Below, one piece after another: positions 14,123 through 62,747 of a stretch of 64,000 nucleotides of DNA. Below the pieces are notes generated by a model. That model did no database searches, had not been told where the DNA came from, and saw only the letters and a program-made list of their open reading frames with translations. The position numbers and the translations under genes were made by a program. How positions within the stretch are numbered: position 1 is the first letter of the stretch; each line of letters opens with the position of its first letter. Origin of the DNA: Micromonospora globbae (lineage in GTDB: Bacteria; Actinomycetota; Actinomycetes; Mycobacteriales; Micromonosporaceae). Where the stretch lies: NCBI RefSeq assembly GCF_003610785.1, contig NZ_RAQQ01000027.1, positions 1 to 64,000 of the forward strand, read 5' to 3'.

Positions 14123-14198
14123 CCGCGATCTTGCAGTTTCGGCCCGCGATTCGCGGCATGTGTCCCCGTTTGCCAGGGCAGAAAGTGCAAGATCGCGG
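14123..14198. repeat. Inverted repeat element A (CGATCTTGCA family)
   Basis: Left arm CCGCGATCTTGCAGTTTCGG and right arm ending AAAGTGCAAGATCGCGG pair with two mismatches over about 22 bp, separated by about 30 bp. The right arm ends 28 bp beyond the stop codon of the minus-strand VOC gene. Close relatives lie at 24766-24845 and 44054-44129. Confidence 0.85.
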
Positions 14199-24765: not shown

Positions 24766-24845
24766 CCCCGCGATCTTGCACTTTCTGCCCCGGCAAAAGC
24801 CGCATTCCACGCGATCCAGGGGCCGAAAGTGCAAGATCGACGGGG
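24766..24845. repeat. Inverted repeat element B (CGATCTTGCA family)
   Basis: The left arm CGATCTTGCACTTTCTGCCC and the right arm, starting GGGGCCGAAAGTGCAAGATC, pair over about 25 bp with few mismatches around a 30-bp centre. It lies between the convergent malic enzyme and dapF genes, 25 bp beyond the dapF stop codon. Confidence 0.87.
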
Positions 24846-44053: not shown

Positions 44054-44129
44054 CCGCGATCTTGCACTTTCCGCCCCGGCAACAACGACATTCCGGGGCA
44101 TTGCGCGGGCACAAACTGCAAGATCGCGG
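44054..44129. repeat. Inverted repeat element C (CGATCTTGCA family)
   Basis: Left arm CCGCGATCTTGCACTTTCCG and a right arm ending AACTGCAAGATCGCGG pair with few mismatches around a centre of about 30 bp. The right end lies 21 bp beyond the MocR gene stop codon on the minus strand. Confidence 0.85.
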
Positions 44130-53938: not shown

Positions 53939-54421
53939 TCATGCGACGCCGTCCCCGCGCCGCAGCCGCCGCCGCGCCGGTTCCGGGTCGACCTGCTCCG
54001 GGTCGGCGCCCGGGCCCTCGCCGCCGAGGTCCGCGGTGGCCACCTCGTCACGCTCGGCCCGGCGGACGATCTGCCGGTCCTCCACGTCGTCGGGCACCTC
54101 GTCGTCCCCCGTCAGGTACCAACTGCGGTAGGCGACCGCGAGCAGGAACGCGGTGAGCCCGAAGGTGATGACGATGGAGGTGAGCACCATGGCCTGCGGA
54201 AGCGGGTCGCTCATCCGGTCGACGGGACCGGTGCCCACCACGGGGGCTCCGCCGGAGCGGCCGCCCATCATGATGAGCAGGTTGACGCCGTTGCCGAGCA
54301 GGACGATCCCGAGGAGGATCCGGGTCAGGCTGCGCTCCAGCAGCAGGCGCACCCCGCAGGAGACGAGCACGCCGACGGCGACGACCAGCACGGCCGTCGG
54401 GCCCGCCCCGCCGCCGTTCAC
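53939..54421 (-). CDS. mrpC: Mrp antiporter subunit C
   Basis: The 160-residue product is NuoK-like with three membrane helices (TRILLGIVLLGNGVNLLIMM and MVLTSIVITFGLTAFLLAVA). The C-terminal 50 residues are a charged cytoplasmic tail not found in most MrpC. The GTG start overlaps the mrpA stop codon by four bases. Confidence 0.92.
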   Translation of the reverse strand: MNGGGAGPTAVLVVAVGVLVSCGVRLLLERSLTRILLGIVLLGNGVNLLIMMGGRSGGAPVVGTGPVDRMSDPLPQAMVLTSIVITFGLTAFLLAVAYRSWYLTGDDEVPDDVEDRQIVRRAERDEVATADLGGEGPGADPEQVDPEPARRRLRRGDGVA

Positions 54422-57243
54422 CGGCCCTCCCCCTGGTCGGCGGCCACGCGGGCGTCGGCGGCCTCGATGTGCCGGTCCACCTCGGCGCCGAGGCGGCGCA
54501 GGATGTCCAGCATCAGCCCGACCACCACGAGGTAGACGCCCACGTCGAAGAAGAGGGACGTGACGAGGTAGAAGTGCCCGATCCCCGGCACGTACAGGTC
54601 GACGCGGGCACTCTGGAGCACCGAGCCGCCGGCCAGCAGCGCGATCACCCCGGTGCCCACCGAGACGGCCAGCCCGGCGCCGAGCACGGTGCCCGCCCCG
54701 ATCGGCGCGGCGTCGGCCAGTTCGTACCGGCCGCCGGCCAGGTAGCGGACGACCAGCGCGAGGCTCGCCACCAGCCCGCCGGCGAAGCCGCCGCCGGGTG
54801 CGTTGTGGCCGGAGAAGAGCAGGAAGAGCGAGAACAGCACCACCGTGTGGAAGAGCAGCCGGGTGATCACCTCCAGGACGATCGACCGGCGCCGCTCGTG
54901 CAGGCGGGCGCCGCCCCGCAGCCAGACGGGCTGGCCGGGGCGCTGCGGGCGGGTCTCCCGCTGCGGCCGGCGGGGCCGGGGTCCGGTGCGGGACCGCTCG
55001 AAGATCAGGCTGGCCACGCCGGTGGCGGCCACCACGAGCACGGAGATCTCACCCATGGTGTCCCAGGCTCGGATGTCGACCAGCGTCACGTTGACCACGT
55101 TGCGGCCGTGCCCCTCGCTGACGGCCAGGTCGGCGAAGGCCGTCGAGATGCTGGTGCTCTGCCGGGCGGCACCGGCGACCAGCGCGAGGCCGGCGGCCGC
55201 CAGGCCGGCCCCCACGGCGACCGCCCGGCGCAGCCACCGGCTGCGGCGCAGTGGACGGGCCGAGAAGCGCGCCGGCAGGCGGCGCAGCACGAGGACGAAG
55301 ACCGCGATGGTCGCGGTCTCCACGAGGAACTGGGTGAGCGCCAGGTCCGGTGCGCCGGAGAGGACGAACAGCATCGCGGTGCCGTAGCCGGTGACCCCGA
55401 CCAGCAGCATGGCGGTCAGCCGGCGGCGTACGCGTACCGCCAGCACCGCCGCGACCGCGAGGACCACGACGACGACCAGTTGCAACGGGGTCTGCCAGAG
55501 GGCGATCCGCTCCTGCCAGGGCCGGGAGGCCAGCATCGCGCCGCCGGGGAGCAGCACGAACACGACGAGGATGATGCCCAGGTACTGCGGCAGGGAGCCG
55601 CGCTGGGTCGCGCCGGTCACCTCGACGGCGAGCCGGTCGAAGCGCCCGACCACCCACTCGTAGCCGGGATTCCCGCCGACCGGGGCCCGCAGCCGGGCCA
55701 GGACCGGGGCGAGGGGGCCGCGCAGCGCGAAGAGCGCGCCGCCCGCGAGCAGCGCCAGCGCCGACAGGCCGAGCGCCGGGGTCGGCCCGTGCCAGAGCGC
55801 CAGGTGCGCGTGGAGCGTGCCGAGCAGTTCGGCGTACGGGCGCAGGAGAGGGTCGAGACCACCGGCGAGCGGCCCGGCGACCAGCCCCGCGACGGCGAGC
55901 AGGGCCGGCGGCAGCAGCAGCGGCGGCGCGACCCGGCCGAGGCGCGCCGGCGCGACGTCCGGCCGGTCGGCGAACGCCCCCCACAGGAACCGCACGCTGT
56001 ACGCCACGGTGAGCGCGGTGCCCGCCACGAGCCCGGCGAGGACCACCGGCCGGTCGGTGAACGCGGCGAACGCCGCCTCCTTGGCGACGAAGCCGATCAG
56101 CGGCGGCACCCCGGCCATGGACGCGGCGGCCAGCAGCGCCACGGTCACGAGCGGCGCCGCGCCGTGCCGCAGCCCGGAGAGCTCGCGCAGGTCCCGGGTG
56201 CCGGCACCGTGGTCGATCACCCCGACCACGAGGAAGAGGGTCGCCTTGAACAGGGCGTGCGCGAGCAGCATGGCGACCCCGGCCAGGGCGGCGTCCGGGG
56301 TGCCCGCCCCGACGAGCACCACGAGCAGGCCGAGCTGGCTCACCGTGCCGTACGCCAGCAGCAGCTTCAGGTCGGTCTGCCGCAGGGCGGCCCAGCCACC
56401 GACGATCATGGTGGCCACGCCCGCGACCAGCACGACCGGTCGCCACGGCCCCACGGTGGCGAGCGCCGGCGCGAGCAGCCCGATGAGGTAGACGCCGGCC
56501 TTCACCATGGCGGCCGCGTGCAGGTACGCGCTCACCGGTGTGGGCGCCGCCATCGCCACCGGCAGCCAGGCGTTGAACGGCAGCACCGCCGACTTGGACA
56601 GCGCGCCGGCCAGGATCAGCAGCACCGCGGCGACGAGGTGGCCGCCGTCGGGCAGCCGCCCGGCCCCGATCTCCGACCACCGGTAGGTACCGGCGTGCTG
56701 GCCGAGCAGGATGAACCCGACGAGCATGGCGAGCCCGCCGAGCGAGGTGACGATCAGCGCCTGCGCGGCCGCCCAGCGGCTGGACCGCCGCTCGGTGCTG
56801 TGCCCGATCAGCAGGTACGAGAAGATCGTGGTCAGTTCCCAGCCGACGTACAGCAGCAGGAGGTCGTCGGCGAAGACGACACAGAGCATGGCCCCGGCGA
56901 ACGCGACCAGGACGGCGGCGAACCGGGCCAGCCCGAGGGAGCCGGGGCCGAAGTACCGGGCGCAGTAGACGAGCACGAGCGCGCCGACGGCGCCCACCAG
57001 CAGGGTCATCAGCCAGGAGAGCGTGTCGAGCCGGAACGCGAGGTCGAGGCGGAGCTGGCGGATCCAGGCGTACGTCTCGACCACCGCGCCGCCGTGCCGG
57101 ACGGCCGGCGTCTGCGCCAGCGCCCAGCCGAAGGCGGCGGCCGGCGCCAGCGCCAGCGGGTAGAAGGCGCGCGGACCCCACCACCTGACGAACAGCGGCG
57201 CGAGGAGTGCCGCCACGAGGTGGAGGATCAGCAGTACGAGCAC
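54418..57243 (-). CDS. mrpA: Fused Mrp antiporter subunits A and B
   Basis: The 941-residue product joins the NuoL-like MrpA (residues 1 to about 770, with FADDLLLLYVGWELTTIFSY, KSAVLPFNAWLPVAMAAPTP and the MbhE-like SGAPDLALTQFLVETATIAVF) to the MnhB domain of MrpB (about 788-925, LFLLFSGHNAPGGGFAGGLV). The fusion explains the lack of a separate mrpB. The GTG at 57243 has GGGAG five bases upstream, better than the GTG two codons earlier. It heads the operon A/B-C-D-E-F-G. Confidence 0.93.
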   Translation of the reverse strand: MLVLLILHLVAALLAPLFVRWWGPRAFYPLALAPAAAFGWALAQTPAVRHGGAVVETYAWIRQLRLDLAFRLDTLSWLMTLLVGAVGALVLVYCARYFGPGSLGLARFAAVLVAFAGAMLCVVFADDLLLLYVGWELTTIFSYLLIGHSTERRSSRWAAAQALIVTSLGGLAMLVGFILLGQHAGTYRWSEIGAGRLPDGGHLVAAVLLILAGALSKSAVLPFNAWLPVAMAAPTPVSAYLHAAAMVKAGVYLIGLLAPALATVGPWRPVVLVAGVATMIVGGWAALRQTDLKLLLAYGTVSQLGLLVVLVGAGTPDAALAGVAMLLAHALFKATLFLVVGVIDHGAGTRDLRELSGLRHGAAPLVTVALLAAASMAGVPPLIGFVAKEAAFAAFTDRPVVLAGLVAGTALTVAYSVRFLWGAFADRPDVAPARLGRVAPPLLLPPALLAVAGLVAGPLAGGLDPLLRPYAELLGTLHAHLALWHGPTPALGLSALALLAGGALFALRGPLAPVLARLRAPVGGNPGYEWVVGRFDRLAVEVTGATQRGSLPQYLGIILVVFVLLPGGAMLASRPWQERIALWQTPLQLVVVVVLAVAAVLAVRVRRRLTAMLLVGVTGYGTAMLFVLSGAPDLALTQFLVETATIAVFVLVLRRLPARFSARPLRRSRWLRRAVAVGAGLAAAGLALVAGAARQSTSISTAFADLAVSEGHGRNVVNVTLVDIRAWDTMGEISVLVVAATGVASLIFERSRTGPRPRRPQRETRPQRPGQPVWLRGGARLHERRRSIVLEVITRLLFHTVVLFSLFLLFSGHNAPGGGFAGGLVASLALVVRYLAGGRYELADAAPIGAGTVLGAGLAVSVGTGVIALLAGGSVLQSARVDLYVPGIGHFYLVTSLFFDVGVYLVVVGLMLDILRRLGAEVDRHIEAADARVAADQGEGR

Positions 57244-57425
57244 CCGCACTCCCGGTCGAGGTGGCAGCGGCGGACGCCTCCGGCGGTCGGCGCCTAGATG
57301 CGATCAGACGTCAGTTCCGCGCTCTTCGGGCGGATTCTGCGAAAATCGCCCGTATCGCCCGCCCAGGTGCCCCACATCCAAAAGACCCCGGCGCCGCCCC
57401 GTCCCACCCGCGACCCCCACCCCGG

Positions 57426-57483
57426 TGATCATGAGGTTGCCGGGCAGAAACCGGGACGTTCACCCCCGCCAACCTCATGATCA
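57426..57483. repeat. Inverted repeat element D (TGATCATGAGGTTG type)
   Basis: Arms TGATCATGAGGTTGCCGGG and CCCGCCAACCTCATGATCA pair with one mismatch around a 20-bp centre. The right arm contains the TGA stop codon of the minus-strand gene at 57481-57918. Layout matches elements A-C but the arm sequence is unrelated. Confidence 0.88.
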
Positions 57484-57918
57484 ACCGCGAGAGCGGGCGG
57501 GTGATCCGGCGGGCGGGCCGGCGTCGGCGGGTTGGTCGGGGGGCTCCTGGTGTGCCGGGGTGCGGGTGTCGAGGGCGGCCCCCTGGCGCCCCGACTCGGT
57601 CAGCAGGTCGGTGCGCCCGAGCTGGCGGGCGACCCGGTGCACGACGCGCTCCGCGGCGGCCAGCGAGCGCACCGACAGCAGGCGACCTCGACTCTCCCGC
57701 CGCAGTACGAAGTAGTGCACCGCGGCGCGGACCTGCCCCCGGTCGGCGGCGCTGGCATGGGCCGTGGAGACGACCAGTTCGCGCAGGCAGCGGGCCAGCC
57801 GCTCGGCGAGCTCGAGTTCGGGACCGCGCAGCCCGGCGCGGACGGCGGCGAGATGGCTGTCGACCTTGCGGATGAGCACGTCCGTGCCGCGCTCGACGTT
57901 CCGCTGCTCGACGGCCAT
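57481..57918 (-). CDS. Unknown 145-residue helical protein
   Basis: I do not recognise this family. Residues 1-100 are mostly helical, with RGTDVLIRKVDSHLAAVRAG, LELAERLARCLRELVVSTAH, RGQVRAAVHYFVLRRESRGR and AAERVVHRVARQLGRTDLL. The rest is Pro/Ala-rich and probably disordered. The stop codon lies inside inverted repeat D. Upstream is an A+T-rich region shared with lhr. The regular heptad-like pattern and the sound start (MAVEQRNVERGTD with CGGGGTGGAGG upstream) support a real gene. Confidence 0.7.
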   Translation of the reverse strand: MAVEQRNVERGTDVLIRKVDSHLAAVRAGLRGPELELAERLARCLRELVVSTAHASAADRGQVRAAVHYFVLRRESRGRLLSVRSLAAAERVVHRVARQLGRTDLLTESGRQGAALDTRTPAHQEPPDQPADAGPPAGSPARSRG

Positions 57919-57952
57919 CCGATTCCTCCACCCCGGTCCGGTCGCGAGTGAA

Positions 57953-58016
57953 GTTACTTTATGTTGCGCATCACAAGCAAGCAGTTAAGTGAGACTTAAT
58001 GCGTCAACCGTTACTT
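57953..58016. promoter_or_regulatory. A+T-rich control region with palindrome, upstream of lhr and the 145-residue protein gene
   Basis: In this unusually A+T-rich 64-bp tract, GTTACTT occurs at 57953-57959 and 58010-58016, and between them lies the perfect palindrome TTAAGT-GAG-ACTTAA (57985-57999). It is a plausible operator and promoter for the divergent genes. Confidence 0.5.
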
Positions 58017-58097
58017 CCACTCCCCAAGTGTCCTATCCAGACATAAACCACCACCGCCCGTAGGGGGATTGTCGCAGCCCCGCGGCAGGATGGACAG

Positions 58098-61000
58098 GTG
58101 GCGGAGATGGCAGACGGCCCCGGCGTGGGCGACGCGGACGTGCTGAGCGGGTTCAGCCCGGCGACCCGGGAGTGGTTCACCGCCGCCTTCGCCGCGCCCA
58201 CCGCCGCCCAGGCGGGCGCGTGGCAGGCGGTCTCGGCCGGGCGCAACGCGCTCGTCGTGGCGCCGACCGGCTCCGGCAAGACCCTCGCCGCCTTCCTCTG
58301 GTCCCTCGACCGGCTGGCCCGCGAGCCCGCCCCGGCCGACGCGAAACAGCGGTGCCGGGTGCTCTACGTGAGCCCGCTCAAGGCGCTCGCCGTCGACGTC
58401 GAGCGCAACCTGCGCGCCCCCCTCGCCGGCATCCGGCAGGCCGCGACCCGGCTCGGCATCGCCCCGCCCGACATCACGGTCGGCATGCGCACCGGCGACA
58501 CCCCGGCCGACGAGCGGCGCGCCTTCGCGCGGACCCCGCCGGACATCCTCATCACCACCCCCGAGTCGCTGTTCCTGCTGCTCACCTCCGCTGCCCGCGA
58601 CTCGCTCCGCGGCGTCCAGACGGTCATCGTCGACGAGGTGCACGCGGTCGCCGGCAGCAAGCGCGGCGCCCACCTCGCGCTGTCCCTGGAGCGGCTCGAC
58701 GAACTCCTGCCGGCACCCGCCCAGCGGATCGGCCTGTCCGCCACGGTCCGGCCGATCGACGGCTGCGCACGGTTCCTCGGCGGGGCCCGGCCCGTCGACG
58801 TGGTCCAACCGCCCACGCCGAAGACCATCGAGGTCGCCGTCGAGGTGCCCGTGGAGGACATGACCCGCCTCGACGAGCAGGAGCAGCCGCTCGACGACGA
58901 GCTGGGCGGGCCGGGGCCGCGCCGGCCGTCCATCTGGCCCGCCGTCGAGGAACGGGTCTACGCCCTCATCCGGGCGCACCGCTCGACCATCGTCTTCACC
59001 AACTCCCGGCGCAGCGCGGAGCGGCTCTGCGCCCGCCTCAACGAGCTGGCCGCCGAGGAGCTGGCCGGCGCGGACGGCACCGGCGCGGGGAGCGGTCCCG
59101 GCCGGTCCGCGGCCGACGGCGGCCCGGCCGGCGGTCGCGCCCCGTCCGGCGGGCCGTTCCGGGCGCCGCGCCAGCCGGCCGAGGTGATGGCCCAGTCCGG
59201 ATCGGCCGCCGGCGCGGCACCCGTGATCGCCCGGGCCCACCACGGCAGCGTCTCCCGCGAGGAGCGCAAGCACATCGAGGAGGCGTTGAAGTCCGGGCAG
59301 CTGCCCGCCGTGGTCGCCACCTCCAGCCTGGAACTCGGCATCGACATGGGCGCGGTCGACCTCGTCGTGCAGATCGAGGCCCCGCCGAGCGTCGCCGCCG
59401 GCCTGCAGCGCGTCGGTCGGGCCGGGCACCAGGTCGGCGCCGTCTCCCGCGGCGTGGTCTTCCCCAAGCACCGCGGCGACCTCCTCTCCTGCGCCGTCGT
59501 GGCGGAACGGATGAGCGAGGGCGCCATCGAGGAGCTGCACTTCCCGCGCAACCCGCTCGACGTGCTGGCCCAGCAGATCGTGGCGATGGTGGCACTGGAA
59601 CCGTGGCGGGTGGGCGACCTCGCCGTGGTGGTCCGGCGCGCGGCGCCCTTCGCCGAGCTGCCCGACTCGGCGCTGCACGCCGTGCTCGACATGCTCTCCG
59701 GCCGCTACCCCTCGACGGCCTTCGCCGAGCTGCGCCCCCGGCTCGTCTGGGACCGGGCCACCGACGTGCTCACCGGCCGGCCCGGCGCGCAACGGCTCGC
59801 CGTGACCAGCGGCGGCACGATCCCCGACCGGGGCCTCTTCGGGGTCTTCCTGGCCGGCGCCGAACGGGCCGCCCGGGTGGGCGAACTCGACGAGGAGATG
59901 GTCTACGAGTCGCGCGTCGGCGACGTCTTCCTGCTCGGCTCGTCGTCCTGGCGGATCGAGGAGATCACACCGGACCGGGTGCTCGTGTCCCCCGCGCCCG
60001 GACAGGCCGCGCGGATGCCGTTCTGGAAGGGCGACACGCTGGGCCGGCCCGTCGAGCTGGGCCGCGCCATCGGCGCCCGGGTGCGCGCCCTGCTGCGGAC
60101 GGACGACGAGGCGGCGATCGCCGCGCTGCGCGCCGGCGGGCTGGACGACTGGGCGGCCGGCAACCTCATGGCGTACCTGCGGGAGCAGCGTGCCGCCACG
60201 CGGTCGCTGCCGGACGACCGGACGATCGTCGTCGAGCGGTTCCGTGACGAGCTGGGCGACTGGCGTCTCGCGGTGCACAGCGTGCTCGGTGCGCGGGTCA
60301 ACGCGCCGTGGGCGCTGGCCATCGGGCGCCGGCTGACCGAGCGCTACGGCGTGGACGCCCAGGTGATGCCGTCCGACGACGGCATCGTCGTACGCCTGCC
60401 GGACACCGCCGACGAACCACCCGGCGCCGACGTGGTGGCCTTCGAACCCGACGAGATCGCCCAGCTCGTGGAGGAGTCCGTCGGCACGTCGGCGCTCTTC
60501 GCGTCCCGGTTCCGCGAGTGCGCGGCCCGGTCGCTGCTGCTGCCCCGCCGCGACCCGCGCCGCCGCCAACCGCTCTGGCAGCAGCGCCAGCGCGCCGCCC
60601 AACTGCTCGACGTCGCCCGCGAGTACGCCGACTTCCCGGTCACGCTGGAGGCCGCGCGGGAGTGCCTCCAGGACGTGTTCGACCAGCCGGCCCTGGCCGG
60701 GCTCATGCGGGACCTGTCCGCCCGCCGGGTGCGCCTCGTCGAGGTGGAGACCGCGCAGCCGTCGCCGTTCGCCCGGTCGCTGCTCTTCGGCTACGTGGGC
60801 GCGTTTCTCTACGAGGGCGACGCGCCGCTCGCCGAGCGGCGGGCCGCCGCGCTGGCACTGGACTCGGCGCTCCTCGGCGAACTGCTCGGCCGCGTCGACC
60901 TGCGGGAGCTGCTCGACCCGGCGGTGCTCGCCGAGACCGAGCGGCAGCTGCGCTGGCTCACCGAGCAGCGGCGGCCCCGCGACGCGGAGGACGTGGTCGA

Positions 61001-62747
61001 GCTGCTGCGCGTGCTCGGCGACCTCACGGCGGACGAGCTGGCGGAGCGGGGCGTGCCGGTCGACTGGCTCACCGACCTGGAGGCGGCCCGCCGGGTGCTG
61101 CGCGTCCGGATCGCCGGCGAGGAGCGCTGGGTCGGCATCGAGGACGCGGCCCGGCTGCGCGACGCGCTCGGCGTGGCCCTGCCCGTCGGGGTCGCCGAGG
61201 CGTACCTCGCACCGGTCCCCGACCCGCTCGGCGACCTCGTCGCCCGGTACGCCCGCACCCACGGGCCGTTCGCGGCCGCCACCTGCGCGGCCCGGTTCGG
61301 GCTCGGCGTGTTCGTGGTGGAGCAGGCGCTGCGGCGGCTCGCCGCCACGGGCCGGGTGGTGTCCGGCGAGTTCACCCCGGACACCGTCGGCAGCCAGTGG
61401 TGCGACGCCGAGGTGCTGCGGATGCTGCGTCGCCGGTCCCTGGCCGCGCTGCGCCGGGAGATCGAGCCGGTGCCGCCGCGCGCGCTGGCCGCGTTCCTGC
61501 CCCGCTGGCAGCAGGTCGGCTCGTCCGCCCGCGGGGTGGAGGCGCTGGCCGCGACGGTGGAGCAGTTGCAGGGCGCCGCCGTGCCGGCGTCGGCGCTGGA
61601 GCGGCTGGTGCTGCCGGGCCGGGTGGCCGACTACTCCCCCGCGCAGCTCGACGAGCTGTGCGCGAGCGGCGAGGTGGTCTGGGCGGGCTCCGGCGCCATC
61701 TCCGGCGGCGACGGCTGGGTCACGCTCGCGTACGCCGACGCCGCGCCGCTGCTGCTCCCCCCGCCGGACGAGGGGCTGGCCCTCACGCCGCTGCACGAGG
61801 CGGTGCTCGACGCGCTGGCCGACGGGCAGGCGCTCTTCTTCCGACCGCTGGCCGACCGGGTCGGCTCGACCGACGACGCGGCGCTGACCGCCGCCATCTG
61901 GGACCTGGTGTGGGCCGGCCACCTCACCAACGACACGCTCGCCCCGCTGCGCGCGGTGCTCGGCGCGGGCGGGGCGCACCGTTCACGGCCGTCCGCGCCG
62001 CGCACCCGATACCGGCGCCCCGGCCGGATCGCGCTGCCCACCCGCGGCGGCCCGCCCACCGTGGCGGGGCGCTGGTCGCGCCTCCCGGAGCGGGACACCG
62101 ACCCCACCCGCCGCGCCGCCGCGCTGGCCGACGTCCTGCTGGACCGGCACGGCGTGCTCACCCGGGGCGCGGTCGTGGCCGAGCAGGTGACCGGGGGTTT
62201 CGCCGCCGTGTACCCGGTACTCTCCGCGCTGGAGGAGCGCGGGGCGGCCCGGCGCGGCTACTTCGTGGAGGGGCTCGGCGCGGCCCAGTTCGCCGTGCCC
62301 GGAGCGGTGGACCGCATCCGGGCGCTCGCCGAACCGGCCGACGCCGGGCGGGGCGGCCCCACACTGGTGCTCGCCGCCACCGACCCGGCGAACCCGTACG
62401 GCGCGGCGCTGCCGTGGCCGGAGCGGGTGGTCGACTCGGGCGACGGCGACACCCCGGCGACCGGGCACCGGGCCGGCCGCAAGGCGGGGGCGCTCGTCGT
62501 CCTGGTCGCCGGCGACCTCGTGCTCTACGTGGAGCGGGGCGGGCGCACGCTGCTCTCCTTCACCGACGACACCGAGGCGCTCGCGGCGGCCGCCAAGGCG
62601 CTGGCGGACGCGGTGCACACGGGCGCGCTCGGCGCCATCTCGGTGGAGCGGGCCGACGGTGAGGCCGTAAACACCTCGCCGCTGCGTGACGCCCTGACCG
62701 CCGCCGGTTTCCGGGCCACCCCGCGCGGTCTGCGGCTGCGCGGCTGA
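58098..62747 (+). CDS. lhr: Lhr-type ATP-dependent superfamily 2 helicase
   Basis: The 1549-residue product has Walker A APTGSGKT (near residue 55), the DEVH box (near 178), motif III-like SATVRP, motifs IV-VI with VGRAGHQVG, an Lhr winged-helix and beta-barrel core to about residue 870, and a long C-terminal extension as in mycobacterial Lhr. These enzymes unwind DNA and RNA:DNA 3' to 5' and respond to crosslink damage in mycobacteria. A 45-residue low-complexity Gly/Ala/Pro insert lies near 325-370. The GTG start at 58098 is supported only by a weak AGGA. Confidence 0.94.
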   Translation: MAEMADGPGVGDADVLSGFSPATREWFTAAFAAPTAAQAGAWQAVSAGRNALVVAPTGSGKTLAAFLWSLDRLAREPAPADAKQRCRVLYVSPLKALAVDVERNLRAPLAGIRQAATRLGIAPPDITVGMRTGDTPADERRAFARTPPDILITTPESLFLLLTSAARDSLRGVQTVIVDEVHAVAGSKRGAHLALSLERLDELLPAPAQRIGLSATVRPIDGCARFLGGARPVDVVQPPTPKTIEVAVEVPVEDMTRLDEQEQPLDDELGGPGPRRPSIWPAVEERVYALIRAHRSTIVFTNSRRSAERLCARLNELAAEELAGADGTGAGSGPGRSAADGGPAGGRAPSGGPFRAPRQPAEVMAQSGSAAGAAPVIARAHHGSVSREERKHIEEALKSGQLPAVVATSSLELGIDMGAVDLVVQIEAPPSVAAGLQRVGRAGHQVGAVSRGVVFPKHRGDLLSCAVVAERMSEGAIEELHFPRNPLDVLAQQIVAMVALEPWRVGDLAVVVRRAAPFAELPDSALHAVLDMLSGRYPSTAFAELRPRLVWDRATDVLTGRPGAQRLAVTSGGTIPDRGLFGVFLAGAERAARVGELDEEMVYESRVGDVFLLGSSSWRIEEITPDRVLVSPAPGQAARMPFWKGDTLGRPVELGRAIGARVRALLRTDDEAAIAALRAGGLDDWAAGNLMAYLREQRAATRSLPDDRTIVVERFRDELGDWRLAVHSVLGARVNAPWALAIGRRLTERYGVDAQVMPSDDGIVVRLPDTADEPPGADVVAFEPDEIAQLVEESVGTSALFASRFRECAARSLLLPRRDPRRRQPLWQQRQRAAQLLDVAREYADFPVTLEAARECLQDVFDQPALAGLMRDLSARRVRLVEVETAQPSPFARSLLFGYVGAFLYEGDAPLAERRAAALALDSALLGELLGRVDLRELLDPAVLAETERQLRWLTEQRRPRDAEDVVELLRVLGDLTADELAERGVPVDWLTDLEAARRVLRVRIAGEERWVGIEDAARLRDALGVALPVGVAEAYLAPVPDPLGDLVARYARTHGPFAAATCAARFGLGVFVVEQALRRLAATGRVVSGEFTPDTVGSQWCDAEVLRMLRRRSLAALRREIEPVPPRALAAFLPRWQQVGSSARGVEALAATVEQLQGAAVPASALERLVLPGRVADYSPAQLDELCASGEVVWAGSGAISGGDGWVTLAYADAAPLLLPPPDEGLALTPLHEAVLDALADGQALFFRPLADRVGSTDDAALTAAIWDLVWAGHLTNDTLAPLRAVLGAGGAHRSRPSAPRTRYRRPGRIALPTRGGPPTVAGRWSRLPERDTDPTRRAAALADVLLDRHGVLTRGAVVAEQVTGGFAAVYPVLSALEERGAARRGYFVEGLGAAQFAVPGAVDRIRALAEPADAGRGGPTLVLAATDPANPYGAALPWPERVVDSGDGDTPATGHRAGRKAGALVVLVAGDLVLYVERGGRTLLSFTDDTEALAAAAKALADAVHTGALGAISVERADGEAVNTSPLRDALTAAGFRATPRGLRLRG

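Follow-up and report, generated by a model that had tools for sequence, protein, structure and literature searches.

A short hairpin repeat with conserved arms at a gene end in Micromonospora globbae, a candidate mobile element of a genus-centred superfamily

Element D and its neighbouring genes

We analysed a stretch of 64,000 nucleotides from Micromonospora globbae (contig NZ_RAQQ01000027.1; hereafter the window), which belongs to a 7.09 Mb draft genome of 95 contigs with completeness 100. Element D is located between two genes of the minus strand, a 145-aa ORF and a gene for an Mrp/Mnh-type antiporter subunit (Table 1). The start of a 1549-aa ORF (58098-62747), a putative large Lhr-type helicase, adjoins the 145-aa gene. 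The element consists of a perfect 14-nt inverted repeat around a 30-nt core, and both arms were found where the original prediction had placed them. Folded as RNA with a few flanking bases, it reaches -35.4 kcal/mol (z -5.15, with none of 200 shuffles as good), and a strong hairpin is predicted for it both as RNA and as DNA. Intrinsic terminators, i.e. a GC-rich hairpin followed by a T-run, were absent from 57250-58100, and Rfam at the gathering threshold gave no match on the window. The element is bordered by a C-rich left and a G-rich right stretch, here called skirts. The right skirt is the C-terminal coding tail of the 145-aa ORF, and the 40 nt beyond it have a skew of -0.42.

Table 1 Features of the window. 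Positions are those of the whole stretch; skew denotes (C-G)/(C+G).
Feature	Position	Strand	Remarks
Element D	57426..57483	.	58-bp hairpin element, D arm family
Left arm of element D, TGATCATGAGGTTG	57426..57439	+	
Variable core of element D	57440..57469	.	30 nt; most typed copies 29
Right arm of element D	57470..57483	-	exact complement of left arm
TGA stop of 145-aa ORF, from right arm	57481..57483	-	
Left C-rich skirt of element D	57386..57425	.	skew +0.50
Right G-rich skirt of element D	57484..57523	.	skew -0.29
145-aa ORF ended by element D	57481..57918	-	no Pfam match
943-aa Mrp/Mnh-type antiporter subunit gene	54418..57249	-	next gene on same strand, 176 bp from D
A-family element	14126..14195	.	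70 bp
A-family element	24771..24839	.	69 bp
A-family element	44057..44126	.	70 bp

Three further elements of the window (A to C of the original prediction) make up what we call the A family. Element D had been thought to have their size, which is incorrect, as it measures 57-58 bp and they measure 69-70 bp. Its arm had also been called unrelated to that of A. This is not wholly the case: 8 of 14 positions agree, a value reached by only 0.8% of the sequences obtained on shuffling the A arm, and there is a family whose arm is intermediate between the two (GATCATG[CG]AGTTG). The central word GGCAGAAA that D was said to have in common with A is indeed present, but it looks like a coincidence, being found in one of 154 D elements, namely the window copy.

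The TGA that ends the 145-aa protein is within the right arm, as predicted, and is its outermost triplet. Among 129 D elements that could be placed relative to called genes, 20 contain the stop codon of a neighbour, which corresponds to the first triplet of the arm in 14, the third in 4 and a deeper position in 2. The supply of a stop codon is probably a by-product of the TGATCA in the arm. With its sequence TGATCATGA, the arm gives TGA in one frame when a copy lies at the end of a gene, as in element D, and is open in another, as in the ada-alkA gene described below. It had further been proposed that insertion reset the C-terminus of the upstream gene. The C-termini of the orthologues do differ between species: of 29 relatives, 23 have a protein of 128 aa, 1 has one of 125 aa and 4 have one of 135-148 aa, with 1 undetermined, compared to 145 aa in the window. 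However, past residue 108 or so the tail varies even where relatives have no element, so the insertion would have shifted a loose end by a few residues. A reset of the C-terminus is therefore plausible as a minor effect, although not as a dramatic event.

Copies, sister families and genomic setting

Element D is a copy of a dispersed element and its arm is far from unique in the genome. The arm at up to 2 mismatches occurs 130 times in forward and 130 times in reverse orientation in the window's genome, compared to 5 and 13 for the reversed control. Besides the window copy, which has 58 bp and is not counted here, 71 further copies of exactly 57 bp have at most 3 mismatches over 26 fixed positions, against 0 in the control; among the matches listed, 32 were exact and 14 had one mismatch. 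The length is narrow, with 88 of 102 typed elements having 57 bp, 7 having 58 and 7 having 56, although lengths of about 53-64 bp were admitted in the searches. The window and 20 stretches of its genome that were picked for their D copies, 464 kb in total, were also scanned de novo. Inverted repeats whose arm contains 5 or more A/T numbered 43 (29 D, 7 A and 7 other), compared to none in one block-shuffled control. In an alignment of 87 57-mers, columns 2-14 and their partners hardly vary, partly by construction since most of these copies were found with exact arms, and columns 16-18 are mostly paired. The evidence for a pairing constraint is mixed: columns 1/57 (48% Watson-Crick) and 15/43 (55%) vary without keeping pairs, whereas the column pair 19/39 swaps C-G with G-C. 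Copies outside ada-alkA were found via their arms, so decayed copies are under-counted.

Exact-arm D pairs were found in 57 of 101 Micromonospora genomes, with the maximum of 38 in the window's genome and 0 in all for the control. An order-wide sample gave an exact D pair in 44 of 397 genomes, which belong to 2 of 85 genera, both of one family, and a scan of named genomes gave only Micromonospora and Verrucosispora records among the 101 stretches listed. Outside the genus Micromonospora, exact-arm D pairs were thus almost absent from the genomes covered. Two separate observations concern the placement of copies. M. tulbaghiae has two different D elements about 110 bp apart (L222:473-697). In four contigs of the window's genome (C1, C9, C18 and C30), D arms are also found no more than about 600 bp from a contig end, which may reflect difficulties in assembling the skirts or neighbouring sequence.

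Cores of D elements fall into classes by word, namely GGAGATC (C1), GACRAA-CGGAC (C2) and CGACACGCC (C3); the core of the window copy is in none of them. A sister family, E, has the arm GATCAAGAGGTT and was found in 68 of 101 genomes, with 0 elements in the window's genome. The A family was found in 46 of 101 genomes, with 37 elements in the window's genome, and in 13 of 101 genomes all three exact patterns (D, E and A) are absent. The C1 word GGAGATCAAA and the C3 word also occur within E arms; some E elements thus have C1 or C3 cores, which means that arms and cores combine. The arms of a further type, F, read GATCATG[CG]AGTTGTGGTG. Another long hairpin family (GATCGACTCGG...CCGAGTCGATCA) was seen to the left of, and close to, a D element in L201 and L243, and hairpins related to it occur in L055, L057 and stretches of genomes G020 and G068. 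We considered whether D and E are mutually exclusive arm dialects and do not claim it, as the correlation over 101 genomes is not significant (rho -0.12, p 0.22); only at the extremes do genomes with at least 10 D have E up to 13, and those with at least 20 E have D up to 4. The copy numbers of D and A are weakly correlated over the same genomes (rho 0.25, p 0.012), and those of E and A are not.

From 154 D elements, 129 were placed, 6 were inside called genes and 19 were not placeable, where genes were called with a codon-usage script and small genes may be wrong. The placed elements lie between convergent genes in 69 cases, tandem genes in 46 and divergent genes in 14, compared to 172, 431 and 164 of the 767 neighbour pairs at the same loci, and the median distance to a called stop codon is 32 nt. 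The flanks are C-rich on the left and G-rich on the right in all three settings, with the skew of the 40-nt flanks ranging from +0.36 to +0.44 on the left and -0.40 to -0.44 on the right (average about +0.40 and -0.41) and fading by about 100 nt. The skew after 253 stop codons without an element nearby is 0.05, and A elements (n=15) have the same skew as D elements (+0.39 left, -0.38 right). A skew measured for the E family was disregarded, since its search pattern matches D arms as well. The pairing of left with right skirts (-39.2 kcal/mol) is only slightly above that of permuted partners (-37.6 +- 0.33 kcal/mol). We therefore rejected a precise extension of the stem by the skirts, and the pairing is mostly due to composition.

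Occupants of orthologous sites

We compared the locus of element D in two overlapping sets of relatives, one with 30 loci including that of the window and the other with 29, each having 27 loci with both anchors. D arms were found only in the window's locus in both sets. However, the comparison is not simply one of strains with and without the element, since other arm families occur there. In the first set, E-type hairpins are present in five loci (L050-L053 and L056), an F-type hairpin in L058 and L063, and, by calls made partly by reading the sequences, an A element also in L063, another long hairpin (G) in L055 and L057, and a decayed E in L077. The other loci of this set showed no hairpin, and those with both anchors have gaps of 86-280 bp. 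The second set adds E in L113 and L116, a decayed E in L117 and F in L122. The closest relatives are about 9-10% diverged at the locus, and we observed no case in which one of two very close strains had gained D. Separately, in L057 (genome G068) the interval that separates the antiporter gene from the orthologue of the 145-aa ORF contains an insertion, its length very roughly 170 bp. Found by reading the sequence, it is unrelated to D and has inverted ends GGCGTGTGTCGAAGTC / GACTTTGACACATGCC with CTAG on both sides, the pattern expected of a classical MITE that duplicates 4 bp of its target.

Other sites change their occupant as well, as seen on following three more D sites of the window's genome into 7 relatives. 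The site D9826 has an E-type hairpin in 7 of 7 relatives, one of them with the variant arm GATCACGAGG. At D13535, 4 of 7 relatives have a D-type and 2 an E-type hairpin, and 1 has none; at D4725, 1 of 7 has a D-type hairpin and in the other 6 it was not detected. Among sites of A elements, 24771 has A in G066, an E-type hairpin in G116 and no A in G144, G020 and G068; 44057 has A with a different core in G066 and G116 and none in the same three genomes; and at 14126 no A was found in the 4 relatives (of 5) that have the flanks. Genome G012 has a nested copy, an E element inside another E, and G036 has a full E beside a half. The 154 distinct D elements include 50 pairs with flanks alike on both sides, one pair being two elements of one locus, and cores in such pairs are often of different class or orientation. 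Since these pairs were found by their arms, they are silent on how often arms decay.

A further case is a gene for an Ada-AlkA fusion protein (PF02805, HTH_18 and PF06029), in which an element lies between the conserved TRLL and LRGF and is translated as VDHEV...QPHDQ or similar. The window's genome has it as well (L290, G000:C9:68901-69900, of rows L260-L329). A search matched 121 of 121 genomes, and we examined 72 rows that are not a random sample: 30 rows that best matched a query with an element, 40 others, including the window's genome, that were picked mainly for short or split matches, and two additional loci. An insert of at least 60 nt was present in 53 of the 72 rows; in the remaining 19 it was shorter, one of these having an arm. 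Of the 53 inserts, 45 have both arms within 1 mismatch (at least 11 of 12) of the arm of D, D-C3 or E, 5 have one such arm and 3 have none; with shuffled arm words, all 50 trials on these inserts gave 0. A single frame accounts for the left arm in 44 of 45 rows and for the right arm in 47 of 50, so that the hairpins reside in the gene in frame. One insert (L319, G035:C1:6093301-6094150) has 124 nt, which is no multiple of three, and its gene must be broken or the assembly wrong.

Three kinds of hairpin occupy this place, namely E and two kinds of D, one with a C1 and one with a C3 core. When the C1/C3 class of 32 element rows is mapped on a flank tree of 53 rows, it changes at least 9 times; this is a minimum on the best tree, in which 7 of 49 inner branches are open and two rows have identical flanks. 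The core changes orientation 3 times with flanks unchanged. The arms are kept at the nucleotide level. In 28 two-armed D-type rows of 33 tested, the arms retain rare codons ending in A or T, with a GC3 of 0.089 in arm codons compared to 0.916 in the flanks. Third-position agreement is 0.923 in arm codons compared to 0.73 and 0.68 in the flanks, where 0.923 is an upper figure, since 5 rows without two good arms had been dropped. Flank words of 12 nt were within 1 mismatch of their consensus in 63% (left) and 48% (right) of rows; on the same measure the arms gave 45 of 53 and 50 of 53, although the arms were given the best fit to three words. Judging from these codons, the arm seems to be kept for its DNA sequence and not for the peptide.

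Explanations of the hairpins

The closest likeness is to the REPINs of Pseudomonas fluorescens. As described in PMC3116915, these have two inverted conserved 16-mers at a perfectly conserved distance with a less conserved spacer, a predicted hairpin and a location in extragenic space, with 430 REP doublets. D elements likewise have two inverted conserved short arms at a fixed distance, a variable spacer and a hairpin. However, REPINs accompany RAYT genes (PMC3116915), D and E copies also reside in frame within a gene, and their occupants change at fixed sites. We rejected membership in the RAYT/REPIN system, since the window's genome (a draft in 95 contigs, completeness 100) has no match to RAYT (Y1_Tnp, PF01797). 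Such a match was found in 28 of 101 genomes and in 3 of 13 genomes with at least 10 exact D pairs. REP sequences, according to the available text of PMC8266576, are high-copy palindromes proposed to be non-autonomous and mobilised in trans by TnpA-REP, a HUH single-strand enzyme, with the GTAG tag in recognition; the D arm has no GTAG tag, and the window's genome has no match to the enzyme. CGTC precedes GATC in some D copies, and the window copy reads CGGTGATC.

Rickettsia palindromic elements, according to the review PMC10969869, form several families of about 150 bp that are often in frame in protein genes. The ada-alkA hairpins resemble them in being inserted in frame with the reading kept open, but D elements have 57 bp and belong to another phylum, and most placed D copies are intergenic. 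The RU/ERIC-type elements of enterobacteria are likewise small repeats; in the accessible portion of PMC2759123 they are mobile, 103-168 bp long and intergenic (by the title also intragenic or coding), and the design of fixed arms and free core does not appear in that portion. A MITE of a DDE transposon would have terminal inverted repeats, as element D does. However, no target-site duplication was found in 37 flank pairs, where 4 of the 37 have equal flanks of 4 nt and none has equal flanks of 5 to 10 nt, and a scan of 1.62 Mb for a gene bracketed by unpaired arms gave nothing convincing, only one 3-kb pair with poor arms (L110), which we judged to be chance. In open-licence literature on repeats and MITEs of Micromonospora and Micromonosporaceae, the titles and abstract openings of the matches listed give no account of these elements, and the arm strings as text retrieved only an unrelated plant paper. 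PMC3733652, on GTAG/CGTC-tagged repeats, contains neither Micromonospora, Salinispora, Streptomyces nor Frankia, nor GATC, and PMC12306157 is without Micromonospora.

On balance, and with only modest confidence, we favour the explanation that D is a RAYT-independent, REPIN-like non-autonomous mobile hairpin of a Micromonospora-centred superfamily whose arms are recognised by a trans-acting factor. The two inverted, sequence-specific arms at a fixed distance would be what a trans-acting protein recognises, as proposed for REPINs (PMC3116915), and the core would be only stem and loop. Copies may move or rewrite one another via an arm-binding enzyme, and new copies could land in old ones, as in the nested copy, after which loss of the outer arms would leave the site in place with a changed occupant. 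Copies would persist near gene 3' ends because they do least harm there, and a copy inside a gene would be tolerated in one open frame. The diversity of cores even within one genome speaks against mobility, as it is not predicted by simple recent copying. The same holds for the lack of target-site duplications in the 37 flank pairs, of a convincing arm-bracketed gene in the 1.62 Mb and of an observed gain of D. Moreover, arms might be kept at single sites because the individual copies are useful to the host.

A function for the host is the core of one alternative, in which the hairpins are bidirectional transcript ends that stop or trim transcription arriving from either side, the C-rich, G-poor upstream RNA being a Rho loading site and the hairpin a roadblock or 3' cap, with spread being secondary. 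The excess of convergent placements, the short median distance to a stop codon and flanks that are C-rich on the side entering the hairpin, compared to the near absence of skew after element-free stops, are consistent with it. However, the skew is equally strong for the 14 divergent and 46 tandem copies, in which at least one flank is the 5' flank of a gene. Moreover, element D has no T-run terminator, a terminator needs no conserved arm sequence, and dozens of species have an element within ada-alkA, which is translated, although a Rho site there could be masked by translation. We consider this explanation rather unlikely, and a chance palindrome or plain intrinsic terminator extremely improbable: a hairpin after a stop codon would fit the latter, but the copy numbers are far over the controls, the de novo scan found 43 repeats with A/T-containing arms against none in shuffled sequence, and the T-run is lacking.

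Exchange between copies could also proceed with no dedicated enzyme if cruciforms break and are repaired from other copies or species via arm homology, such that conversion keeps the arms alike and swaps or flips the cores. The changes of core class and orientation at ada-alkA under unchanged flanks (9 and 3) agree with this. So does the core identity, which is higher among copies at that site than between them and copies elsewhere (0.66 vs 0.53 for C1 and 0.77 vs 0.57 for C3, with 15 and 8 site rows). Different species may thus exchange alleles of a single site, although a protein-level constraint at this coding site could also raise the identity within it. A homology of 14-18 bp in the arms is, however, little for RecA, and neither the first arrival at a site nor nested copies are explained. 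Repair alone thus appears quite unlikely to us, less probable than the transcript ends. A variant that we regard as doubtful, about as much as the transcript ends, takes the hairpins as fixed chromosomal addresses with rewritten contents, where an arm-specific, RAYT-independent system exchanges, flips and re-arms hairpins, mixes arm and core families and carries the symmetric skirts.

Returning to the mobile hairpin that we favour, palindromic repeats of this kind are thought to spread via RAYT enzymes or parent transposons. The present hairpins occur in high copy across a genus, in a genome without a RAYT match, and their occupants change at conserved sites. Element D shows how a repeat can set the stop codon of a gene. 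The ada-alkA gene is a natural experiment across the genus, with one gene holding three kinds of hairpin in the same place and mostly in the same frame, and it makes the cause of the likeness of repeat arms testable in one gene and about 100 strains.
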